Assembly: GCA_026984515.1 (NCBI GenBank)
Contig: JALSRZ010000157.1
Coordinates: 1-37,700 of the forward strand
DNA: 37,700 nucleotides
Direction: 5' to 3'
DNA from: Thiohalobacter sp.
Lineage (GTDB): Bacteria > Pseudomonadota > Gammaproteobacteria > DSM-19610
A program made the translations under genes and the position numbers. Under the pieces are notes generated by a model, which was given only the letters and a program-made list of their open reading frames with translations, had not been told where the DNA came from and did not search any database. Positions 1,704 through 5,747 of the stretch are shown here, in pieces. How positions within the stretch are numbered: the first letter of the stretch is position 1; the number at the start of each line of letters is the position of its first letter.

Positions 1704-2384
1704 TTGGCTATCCGCAAACCGGATATGATTCTCATCGACGTGGACGGCACGCTGGTCGACAGCGTGCCGGACCTGGCGTTTTGCGTGGACGAGATGATGC
1801 GCCGGCTGGGGCGAGCGCCCCGGGGGGAAAGCCGGGTGCGCGACTGGGTCGGCAACGGTGTCGAGCGGCTGGTGCGTCGTGCGCTGATCGGTCAGCTGGA
1901 CGGAGAGCCGGACGAAGCGGAATTCCAGCGGGCCTACCCGGTTTTCCTGGAACTGTATGCCAAGAACACGTCGAAACGTTCCCTGCTGTACCCGGGTGTG
2001 CCGGAAGGGCTCGATTACCTTCGGTCGGCCGGTTATGCGCTTGGCTGTGTTACCAACAAGGCGGAACGGTTCACGATTCCGCTGCTCAGGGACCTGGGAA
2101 TATACGATTATTTCAGCATCGTGATTTGCGGGGATACGCTGGAACACAAAAAACCGCACCCCGCGCCATTGCTGCACGCGGCAGAATTCTTTAAGGTTGA
2201 GCCTGCCAGGTCGCTGATGGTGGGTGACTCTATTAGTGACGTCAGGGCTGCACGTGCGGCGGGTTTCCAGATAGCCTGCCTGCCCTACGGCTACAATCAT
2301 GGCGAGGACATCCGCGTCGCAGAGCCGGATGTCATCATAGAAACCCTCGCTCACCTGAAAACCGAACTGGAACAGGCTGCATGA
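1704..2384 (+). CDS. gph: Phosphoglycolate phosphatase (HAD superfamily)
   Basis: It hydrolyses 2-phosphoglycolate, a product of DNA 3'-end repair and of oxygenase side reactions. The 226-residue protein shows all HAD motifs: the nucleophile motif DVDGTLVDS (Asp12 and Asp14), motif II Thr117 in CVTNK, motif III lysine in HKKPHP (149-150), and motif IV GDSISD (174-179). The start used is TTG at 1704; ATG at 1725 is possible and would still keep the nucleophile motif, so the start is uncertain. The gene lies 19 nt after rpe. Its stop codon overlaps the start of the Trp-Trp leader ORF (ATGA at 2381-2384), so leader translation may be coupled to gph. Confidence 0.95.
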   Translation: MAIRKPDMILIDVDGTLVDSVPDLAFCVDEMMRRLGRAPRGESRVRDWVGNGVERLVRRALIGQLDGEPDEAEFQRAYPVFLELYAKNTSKRSLLYPGVPEGLDYLRSAGYALGCVTNKAERFTIPLLRDLGIYDYFSIVICGDTLEHKKPHPAPLLHAAEFFKVEPARSLMVGDSISDVRAARAAGFQIACLPYGYNHGEDIRVAEPDVIIETLAHLKTELEQAA

Positions 2385-2437
2385 ACTTCACCGCAGAGAC
2401 TGATTTACACGCACACAGGGAACGATGGTGGTCCTGA
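2381..2437 (+). CDS. trpL: Candidate trp leader peptide with tandem Trp codons
   Basis: An 18-codon ORF encodes MNFTAETDLHAHRERWWS. Two adjacent tryptophan codons (2426-2431) come just before Ser and the stop. The ATG overlaps the gph stop codon as ATGA, so ribosomes finishing gph could reinitiate here. It ends 54 nt before the trpE start. Tandem Trp codons near the end of a short ORF directly ahead of trpE are the hallmark of a trp leader peptide used to sense charged tRNA-Trp. The surrounding RNA can form a long hairpin (2389-2485). I could not test conservation, so the call rests on position and codon content. Confidence 0.7.
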   Translation: MNFTAETDLHAHRERWWS

Positions 2438-2485
2438 TCCGCTGTCTGTCTGTGTGGCTCGTGCATAGTAAATGTCTCAACGGTG
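2389..2485 (+). promoter_or_regulatory. Long interrupted hairpin in the trpE leader covering the trpE ribosome-binding site
   Basis: Five colinear helices pair the leader ORF with the region before trpE: CACCG 2389-2393 with CGGTG 2481-2485; GAGAC 2396-2400 with GTCTC 2474-2478; ATTT 2403-2406 with AAAT 2470-2473; CACG 2408-2411 with CGTG 2460-2463; and CACACAG 2412-2418 with CTGTGTG 2450-2456. That is 25 Watson-Crick pairs with small internal loops, and the Trp codons sit in the apical loop. The 3' arm includes most of GGTGA (2482-2486), the likely trpE Shine-Dalgarno. No T-run lies between the leader and trpE, so control would more likely act on translation than through an intrinsic terminator. 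Confidence 0.5.
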
Positions 2486-2491
2486 AAGACC

Positions 2492-3973
2492 ATGACTCCT
2501 GAACACGTTAAAAAACTGGTCGGCGAAGGGTATAACCGCATTCCGGTAACCCGCGAAGTGCTGGCCGACCTCGACACTCCCTTAAGTACCTACCTGAAGC
2601 TGGCCAACGGTCCGTATTCCTACCTGTTCGAGTCTGTGCAGGGGGGCGAGAAATGGGGCCGCTATTCGATCATCGGGCTGCCGTGCCGTACCGTGGTGCG
2701 TGTGTATGGTGAGAAAATCCAGGTGCTCACGGATGGTGAGCCGGTCGAGGAAGTGCAGCACACCGACCCGCTGCAGTGGATAGAGGAATTCCGGCAGCGC
2801 TACCGGGAGCCACAGCTTGACGGGATGCCGCGTTTTGCCGGTGGGCTGGTCGGTTATTTCGGCTACGACACCGTGCGTTACATCGAACCCAGGCTCAGGG
2901 ACGGGGTGAACGAAGATACCCTGCAGACGCCCGATATCCTGTTGATGGTGTCCGACGAGGTAGTGGTATTCGACAACCTTACCGGCAAGCTGCAGCTGAT
3001 CGTGCACCTCGACAGCGCCGACGCGTGGGATGCAGGACAGGAGCGCCTCGACCAGCTGATGGAAGCCATGCGCCGGCCGGTGACAATCCCGGGCGCGCTG
3101 GAAAAATCACGCCAGGTGAGCGAAGACGATTTTGTGTCCGGCTTCACGCGTGAGGGGTTTGAGGCCGCGGTAGCCCGGATCAAGGAGTATATCGTCGAGG
3201 GTGATGCCATGCAGGTCGTGTTGTCGCAACGCCTGTCAGTACCCTTTCATGCACCGCCGCTGGACCTGTATCGCGCCTTGCGCGGGCTGAATCCGTCACC
3301 GTATATGTTCTACCTGGATCTCGATGATTTTCACGTAGTGGGCTCGTCGCCGGAAATCCTGGTGCGCCTGGAAGACGGGGTGGTCACCGTGCGCCCCATC
3401 GCCGGCACACGGCCGCGCGGCCGGGACGAGGCCGAGGATCAGGCGCTGGAGGCCGAATTGCTGGCCGATCCGAAGGAACTGGCCGAACACCTGATGCTGA
3501 TCGACCTGGGGCGTAACGATGCCGGACGGGTCAGCCGGATCGGCAGCGTGGAGCTGACCGAGCGGATGATTATCGAGCGCTATTCACACGTCATGCACAT
3601 CGTGTCCAATGTCACGGGGCGTATCCGGGACGGCCTGTCGGCCATCGACGTACTGCGGGCCACGTTTCCCGCCGGGACTGTCAGCGGTGCGCCGAAGATC
3701 CGGGCCATGGAAATCATCGATGAACTGGAACCGGTCAAACGCGGTGTGTACGCCGGTGCCGTGGGTTACCTGTCCTGGTCCGGTAATATGGATACCGCGA
3801 TTGCGATTCGAACCGCAGTGATCAGGGACGGGACGCTGAATATACAGGCGGGTGCCGGTATTGTGGCCGACTCCGTGCCGGCAAACGAATGGGCCGAGAC
3901 CATGAACAAGGGGCGGGCCATTTTTCGCGCCGTGGCACTGGCACAGGCCGGCCTGGACGGGAAACACCGCTAG
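2492..3973 (+). CDS. trpE: Anthranilate synthase component I
   Basis: It converts chorismate, with ammonia supplied by TrpG, to anthranilate, the first committed step of tryptophan synthesis. The 493-residue product is of usual length. The N-terminal regulatory domain has LFES at 45-48, in the position of the LLES motif tied to tryptophan feedback inhibition. The C-terminal chorismate-binding domain has [37 protein letters not shown] and [19 protein letters not shown] at 2492 was chosen over the in-frame GTG at 2483 because it places [19 protein letters not shown] level with family starts and has GGTGA 5 nt upstream. trpG follows after 12 nt. Expression is probably set by the leader at 2381-2485. 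Confidence 0.97.
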
Positions 3974-3985
3974 GGGGTCTATGCC

Positions 3986-4591
3986 ATGTTATTAATGATC
4001 GATAACTATGATTCCTTCACCTATAACCTGGTGCAGTACCTGGGTGAACTGGGCGCGGAGGTACAGGTGTACCGTAATGACCAGCTCAGTGTGGCCGATA
4101 TCGAGAAGCTGGCGCCGGAACGTATCGTGGTATCGCCGGGACCCTGTACACCCAATGAAGCCGGTGTCTCGGTAGAGGCGATCAGGGCTTTCGCAGGCAG
4201 GATACCGATCCTCGGTGTCTGCCTGGGGCACCAGAGTATCGGCCAGGCATTCGGCGGCCGCATTGTCCACGCGGGAAATATCATGCACGGCAAGACCTCG
4301 ATGATTCATCACCGTGATAGCGGGGTATTCAGGGGGCTGGAAAATCCGCTTGAAGCCACCCGTTATCATTCCCTGGTCATTGAGAAAGACAGCCTGCCCG
4401 AGTGCCTGGAGATCACGGCCTGGACGGCCTCTGCAGGCGGAGAGATGGATGAGATCATGGGTGTGCGTCACCGCACACTCCCCGTTGAGGGGGTGCAGTT
4501 CCACCCGGAATCCATACTTACCGGGCAGGGTCACGAGCTGCTGAAAAATTTCCTGGAAACACCGGTCGGTACAGCGGGAGGGCAGGGCTGA
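3986..4591 (+). CDS. trpG: Anthranilate synthase component II (glutamine amidotransferase)
   Basis: It supplies ammonia from glutamine to TrpE. The 201-residue class I amidotransferase has the full triad: Cys79 in GVCLGHQ, and His173 and Glu175 in FHPESI. The oxyanion region is [11 protein letters not shown]. The ATG at 3986 has AGGGGGT a few bases upstream; an ATG at 3981 is out of frame. Its stop TGA is directly followed by the trpD start ATG, so translation is probably coupled. The homologous PabA role in folate synthesis cannot be excluded from sequence alone, since one amidotransferase can serve both, but the operon context supports TrpG. Confidence 0.96.
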
Positions 4592-5623
4592 ATGGATATG
4601 CAGGGCGCTATTCGCAGCGTGACCGGGCACCGGGACCTGGGCGCCGAAGACATGGCTGCGGTCATGCGGCTGATCATGACCGGGCAGGCCACCCCGGCGC
4701 AGATCGGTGGTTTTCTCATTGGCCTGCGCATGAAGGGAGAGAGCGTCGATGAAATAGCTGGCGCCGCACAGGTCATGCGTGAACTGGCAACCAGGGTACC
4801 GGTGGGCGGTGAGCACCTGGTGGATACCTGCGGCACGGGTGGCGACGGGGCCTCGACCTTCAATATCTCCACGGCCAGTGCACTGGTCAGTGCAGCCGCC
4901 GGTGCGCGGGTCGCCAAGCACGGCAATCGCTCGGTTTCGTCCAGCTGTGGCAGCGCCGATGTACTGGAAGCCGCCGGGGTCAACCTGGATCTGGACGCAG
5001 AGCAGGTGGCTGCCTGCGTGGAGCGGATCGGGGTCGGTTTCCTGTTTGCGCCCAGGCATCACAGCGCCATGAAACACGCCATCGGGCCGCGCCGGGAAAT
5101 GGGCGTGCGCACCCTGTTCAACCTGCTGGGTCCGCTGACCAATCCCGCCTCCGCACCTAACCAGGTGCTGGGTGTATTCAGCGCCGAATGGCTGGAACCG
5201 CTGGCGCAGGTGCTGGGCCGGCTGGGCAGCCGTCATGTGCTGGTGGTGCACGCCGACGACGGGCTGGATGAAATCAGTATCGGCAGCTCGACGCAGGTGG
5301 CGGAACTCTGCGATGGCAACGTTTCCTGCTACCGCATTGCACCACAGGATTTCGGCATGGAAGCGGGCAGCATTGAAAGCCTCGCCGTCCATGATGCGCA
5401 GGGGAGCCTGGCGATGATTCGCCGGGTGTTCGACAATGAAGCCGGTGCGGCGCGCGATATCGTACAGCTGAACGCTGGTGCGGCCATCTACGCGTCCGGT
5501 GTGGCAGACAGCCTGGAGGCCGGTATCCGGCTGGCCGGAGAAGCGATCGCTTCGGGCGCCGCCAGGGAAAAATTTTCCCGCCTGATCGAAGTCAGTAACG
5601 ATTTCCGGGGTGGCGCTGGCTAA
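4592..5623 (+). CDS. trpD: Anthranilate phosphoribosyltransferase
   Basis: It transfers the phosphoribosyl group of PRPP to anthranilate. The 343-residue product has the family signatures: CGTGGDG at 80-86 (PRPP diphosphate loop), STFNIST at 88-94, and KHGNRSVSS at 109-117. [20 protein letters not shown] follows further along. The start ATG is immediately after the trpG stop, and a purine-rich GGGAGGGCAGGG stretch just upstream acts as ribosome-binding site. The gap to trpC is unusually long (124 nt) for this otherwise tight cluster. Confidence 0.97.
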
Positions 5624-5747
5624 AGTGGAATTCACTGCATTGCGAGTACTCCACCACCGCCTGCAGTGTTGCACAGGTATTTCCTGCGCTACGGTGTGCG
5701 GGGCACGGTAATTTCAGGCAAAAACGAATCAATCAGAGGTTGCCCAG

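Follow-up and report, generated by a model that had tools for sequence, protein, structure and literature searches.

The window (here, the whole 37,700-nucleotide stretch of Thiohalobacter sp. DNA that was analysed, from contig JALSRZ010000157.1) holds a small leader ORF set among larger genes in the order rpe-gph-leader-trpE-trpG-trpD-trpC. Its two neighbours are readily identified: gph matches TIGR01449 at 211 bits (cut-off 180) and trpE matches TIGR00564 at 580 bits (cut-off 518). Relatives conserve the ATG at 2492 as the trpE start, and not the GTG at 2483. The features to which the argument refers are the following:

1704 to 2384, plus strand: gph, encoding phosphoglycolate phosphatase (TIGR01449/NF009695, NCBIfam); its stop codon overlaps the leader ATG.
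2381 to 2437, plus strand: the leader ORF, encoding MNFTAETDLHAHRERWWS and then a stop, read from the sequence; its position and Trp ending are kept in relatives.
2386 to 2408, plus strand: arm A, the leader ORF's 5' portion, whose predicted partner is the trpE ribosome-binding site (MFE fold, RNAalifold consensus, swap tests).
2412 to 2431, plus strand: arm B, the 5' side of the predicted inner hairpin, holding CGA (2423-2425) and both Trp codons (MFE fold, B:C swap test, GGUGG/CCGCU helix).
2423 to 2431, plus strand: CGA TGG TGG, a rare Arg codon followed by Trp-Trp, the proposed stall site (from the occurrence of CGA before Trp in leaders).
2439 to 2456, plus strand: arm C, the 3' side of the predicted inner hairpin; the window lacks a U-tract here (MFE fold; no terminator-like site).
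2468 to 2488, plus strand: arm D, the trpE upstream region with the Shine-Dalgarno sequence GGTGAAG (2482-2488), predicted to pair with arm A (fold, swap tests, RNAalifold, covariation).
2492 to 3973, plus strand: trpE, encoding anthranilate synthase component I (TIGR00564); its start codon is common to relatives.

The leader ATG (2381-2383) overlaps the gph TGA (2382-2384); its 18 codons include TGG TGG at 2426-2431, and the peptide, with the ending RWWS, stops at the TGA at 2435-2437, leaving a gap of 54 nt to the trpE start. The initial annotation had described just such an 18-codon ORF with paired Trp codons, lying between gph and trpE and starting on the gph stop, and the sequence confirms it: the leader ORF is real, and it is placed as first described.

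How widespread is this arrangement? Loci carrying trpE were gathered from named genome contigs, from the same family and from a class-wide sample; 222 could be placed, and in 136 of these the spacer between gph and trpE measures 70 nt or more. To be counted, a small ORF needed a Trp codon among its final six and a stop located 40-80 nt ahead of trpE, with dinucleotide shuffles of the spacers as the control for chance. Small ORFs ending in Trp codons are found in 104 of the 136 gammaproteobacterial spacers (the shuffles average 6.1), and 53 spacers have at least two Trp codons in the small ORF, as against 0.45 after shuffling: the earlier judgement that a Trp pair would be unlikely here by chance was sound. 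At the placed loci in which gph abuts trpE there is no leader. The distance from leader stop to trpE start is held within narrow bounds across the class (median 54 nt, quartiles 50-57), and the peptide endings most frequently met are RWRG, RWRR, RWWR, RWRW and SWRW. The ending in the window is likewise of the R-W-(R/W) form, its stop falls in the range of about 45-75 nt before trpE and gph lies upstream; the window element is part of a class-wide leader family that includes Pseudomonas. A search of Rfam with the window and 17 relatives matched no leader family.

At closer range, an alignment of 14 sequences of the genus (minus-strand loci reoriented) has WW at the same column in 12, while one W is left in the other two. 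It had been suggested that aligning the spacers of relatives would disclose a conserved start, length and Trp pair: Trp codons, frame and length are indeed kept, but the tandem pair is not strictly so. Because the class-wide endings are mostly R-W-(R/W), the tandem pair is not the conserved core; judged from the peptides, WW is a local variant of a class-wide ending consisting of RW and then R, W or stop. At the level of sequence, then, the ORF reads as a conserved Trp-codon leader. One further genome of the genus (L088, at G017:C205) has lost the middle of the leader, Trp codons included, either by natural deletion or through an assembly error. It retains both strands of the outer helix, and its shortened ORF, MIAVETERSQR*, ends inside the trpE Shine-Dalgarno sequence.

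The Arg codon that immediately precedes Trp is nearly always CGA: counted without any bonus for CGATGG in the choice of leader, 87 of 94 R-W pairs have it, compared with 26 of the 181 other Arg codons of the same leaders, 64 of 1149 Arg codons in the neighbouring gph genes and 17 of 83 Arg codons followed by TGG in long ORFs. CGA is poorly read in his-leader assays in Salmonella, where it raises stalling (PMC4046918); a slow CGA ahead of UGG could sensitise the stall, and the preference is compatible with slow decoding. CGA is not indispensable, since Pseudomonadaceae have CGC or CGT in its place before Trp. Might CGATGG instead be conserved for the ATG that it contains, as the start of an overlapping ORF, rather than for its Trp codon? 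Some members of the genus do have purines upstream of this ATG; the frames that it opens, however, end at scattered sites relative to trpE, and its predicted anti-SD binding, at -2.7 kcal/mol, is no better than that of shifted controls. On these two grounds the overlapping ORF was rejected, and with extra Trp codons accumulating in the leader frame (the 53 loci with two or more) the idea is scarcely credible.

Which ribosomes would read the leader? The initial annotation had them arriving from gph, so that the leader would need no promoter of its own. Within the genus this is plausible, since the leader most often begins at the gph stop or right next to it, and a promoter scan of 800-2700 found no plus-strand sigma-70-like site, which agrees with transcription from upstream (such scans being weak evidence). 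As a general rule it fails: the leader overlaps the gph stop in only 17 of 91 cases with a located gph and begins more than 40 nt beyond gph in 30, so that coupling to gph must be regarded as optional. E. coli trpL has its own promoter; the window leader, in that respect different, can be fed from gph. The genome has no match to the TrpR family.

Coupling of this kind could in principle be the whole story, with ribosomes from gph translating the leader merely to melt a hairpin or to reinitiate at trpE, and with no sensing of Trp at all. The overlap or abutment with gph in the genus is what one would then expect, L088 keeps its outer helix with no Trp codons, and leader genes that boost expression by reinitiation have been proposed (PMC4833913). 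That proposal, however, involves a distance of 10-11 bp, and here some 53 nt separate the leader stop from the trpE start; overlap with gph is absent from most leaders, and Trp codons at the leader's end are far above chance. Constitutive coupling is very unlikely, and sensing of Trp by the leader is likely.

The RNA of the window is predicted to fold (MFE) into a single long nested hairpin (-46.8 kcal/mol, z -3.0), in which the leader segment CUUCACCG pairs with CGGUGAAG at the trpE ribosome-binding site. RNAalifold applied to the 14 genus sequences returns the A:D helix together with a GGUGG/CCGCU hairpin over the Trp codons. Five pairs have changed on both sides, the covariation score is reached by none of 500 shuffles, and 92% of cells in the genus alignment are paired, as against 31-54% in slid versions. 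Sequences within a genus are related, however, and a class-wide comparison is for that reason the more independent test. This took the form of GC-matched partner swaps of ten segment pairs at 97 non-redundant loci. The native A:D duplex gains 5.4 kcal/mol over its swaps (p 4e-15) and B:C gains 2.1 kcal/mol (p 2e-6); none of the other eight pairs gains significantly at these loci. A:D also beats windows taken from the same genome's gph (p 7e-13), and outside the genus (n=84) it lies in the best 5% of swapped partners at 51% of loci (KS p 2e-24), while about 37% of these duplexes fall outside the best 10%. Several other pairings were entertained and dropped. A:C, B:D and C:D, as alternative helices, are no better than swapped partners at the 97 loci; an A:C pairing that had been spotted by eye in the window and in locus L089 did not generalise; and pairing of CGATGG with CCATCG of arm C is present in only 6% of loci. 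Since only A:D and B:C beat their swap controls, the element is best modelled as a hairpin that would hide a ribosome-binding site, without a competing antiterminator. Among the papers searched, none was found that describes a hairpin between leader codons and the trpE ribosome-binding site.

Textbooks use tryptophan attenuation as their standard example of a translating ribosome that controls transcription, and likeness to enterobacterial leaders had been part of the initial reading of this locus. The likeness extends to sensing: as in enterobacterial trpL, a short leader with tandem Trp codons stands before trpE. It does not extend to output, no terminator/antiterminator helix having been found: the window leader has neither a U-tract terminator nor an antiterminator helix, and sequesters, by prediction, the ribosome-binding site instead. 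Classical transcription attenuation of the E. coli trpL kind, where stalling favours an antiterminator at the expense of a Rho-independent terminator ahead of trpE, would account for Trp codons near the leader's end, and trpE of Pseudomonas is reportedly under attenuation, to judge by the title of a 2001 paper by Olekhnovich and Gussin on P. putida (cited in PMC8297930). By a loose criterion, at least 5 T in the 8 nt that follow the inner hairpin, 11 of 93 relatives qualify; a strict scan, on the other hand, picks out terminator-like sites in only 5 of the 93, the shuffled controls giving 0-1. In the window interval there is no terminator-like site, and no U-tract follows either helix; none of A:C, B:D and C:D stands out as the alternative helix that such a switch needs; and the conserved feature is the hiding of the trpE ribosome-binding site. 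As the common mechanism, transcription attenuation is unlikely. In three members of the genus (L005, L093 and L096) the hairpin near the Trp codons is followed by a U-rich stretch and resembles a Rho-independent terminator, unlike the window. With U-rich tails in 11 of 93 loci, transcription termination may have been added in some lineages, these three among them, without being the shared feature.

Termination could also be left to Rho: trpE mRNA that is blocked and untranslated beyond the leader stop would be open to Rho-dependent termination, which a ribosome stalled for want of Trp would prevent. The first 15 nt after the leader stop are on average C-rich and relatively G-poor (C about 0.38, G about 0.24), and the window has no intrinsic terminator, both of which suit such a scheme. 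Rho could be the sole output or act as a consequence of a translational block; the covariation between arm A and the trpE ribosome-binding site is left unexplained by Rho, and we consider control of this kind quite unlikely. The output of the leader is probably translational rather than a stop to transcription.

The reading favoured here, to which we assign a probability of roughly two in three, is that the leader is a ribosome-controlled translational attenuator of trpE. Its outer helix (A:D) would pair the leader's first codons with the trpE Shine-Dalgarno region and its inner helix (B:C) would span the leader stop as well as the Trp codons. Where Trp is plentiful, ribosomes would leave the leader fast, the hairpin would refold and initiation at trpE would be blocked. 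Where it is scarce, a ribosome would halt at CGA-UGG-UGG, hold B:C open and, most likely with a second ribosome waiting behind it on arm A, prevent A from pairing with D and leave the trpE start accessible. Translation of the leader, stalling at its Trp codons, the part played by queueing and the direction of regulation are what we infer in this scheme. What the computations show is the ORF and how well it is conserved, the two covarying helices, the absence of a terminator from the window and how much energy it takes to open the trpE start.

That last quantity is instructive. Opening the trpE start costs a median of 12.2 kcal/mol at loci with a leader and 6.8 kcal/mol at those without one, where gph is close to trpE (p 2e-11). 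With a single modelled ribosome on the first Trp codon the median falls to 10.1 kcal/mol, and with two in a queue to 5.6. For the window the modelled cost is 20.5 kcal/mol whether the RNA is free or carries a ribosome positioned on the stop codon, and it drops to 11.9 with a stalled ribosome and to 8.3 with a queue. In these calculations a lone stalled ribosome opens the start by more than 3 kcal/mol at only 44% of loci, two ribosomes do so at 78%, and the proposal consequently leans on the second. Measured from the first Trp codon, arm A lies for the most part 15-45 nt upstream, where a second ribosome would stand behind a stalled one; it is this position, together with the modelled costs, that suggests that a stall, probably with a queue, would keep trpE open.

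A more specific version of the proposal can be offered, tentatively and at well under even odds: that in many non-enteric Gammaproteobacteria the leader's first codons are the anti-RBS strand, that release requires both a ribosome stalled at a slow CGA-UGG and another queued behind it, and that the Pseudomonas leader should be re-read accordingly. In such a two-ribosome device, initiation on the leader and repression of trpE would compete for the same segment of RNA.

Translational attenuators of the cat and erm type keep the 5' arm that hides the target ribosome-binding site in or next to a leader ORF, and a stalled ribosome opens the helix. The trpE leader resembles them in having, by prediction, an RBS-hiding arm within the leader ORF, in a helix that a stalled ribosome would open; it differs in that the signal would be a lack of charged tRNA-Trp instead of an antibiotic, and in its two helices, one nested inside the other, with arm A formed by the first codons. 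Among published cases, the closest one found in which a leader pairs with an amino-acid gene's SD box is the actinobacterial LEU element of leuA, whose Leu codons pair with the SD box; a pseudoknot was proposed, and codon mutations did not support attenuation (PMC1262725). The likeness lies in leader sequence that pairs with the Shine-Dalgarno sequence of an amino-acid biosynthesis gene (PMC1262725); the Trp codons of the trpE leader, unlike the Leu codons there, would sit in a separate inner helix.

The Pseudomonas trpE leader is closer to home. In all 30 loci that we take to be Pseudomonadaceae (the assignment rests on an OprI query sequence) the leader ends in RWRWR and an A:D duplex is predicted. 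As in the window, gph lies upstream (it was located in 28 of the 30), and the 5' part of the leader is complementary to the trpE ribosome-binding site, typically GATCAG..CGTGG with CCACGAGGCTGATC. The differences are a GTG start in most loci, CGC or CGT where the window has CGA, and an additional GC-rich hairpin. Distinct from the anti-RBS pairing, this hairpin stands just past the leader stop in loci L229-L258 and is followed by CGTTTGC or a similar sequence.

Should the proposal hold, a large share of the Gammaproteobacteria, Pseudomonas included, would sense Trp by means of a similar leader and act on translation initiation. The family would also serve as a natural test, sampled many times over, of the way in which leader sensitivity depends on codon context (CGA before UGG) and on ribosome queueing; work on this question has until now used engineered his leaders (PMC4046918).

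A minor observation concerns the genes downstream: an open frame of 560 codons runs antisense across trpG and trpD (3992-5674, minus strand), and is probably a by-product of codon composition.
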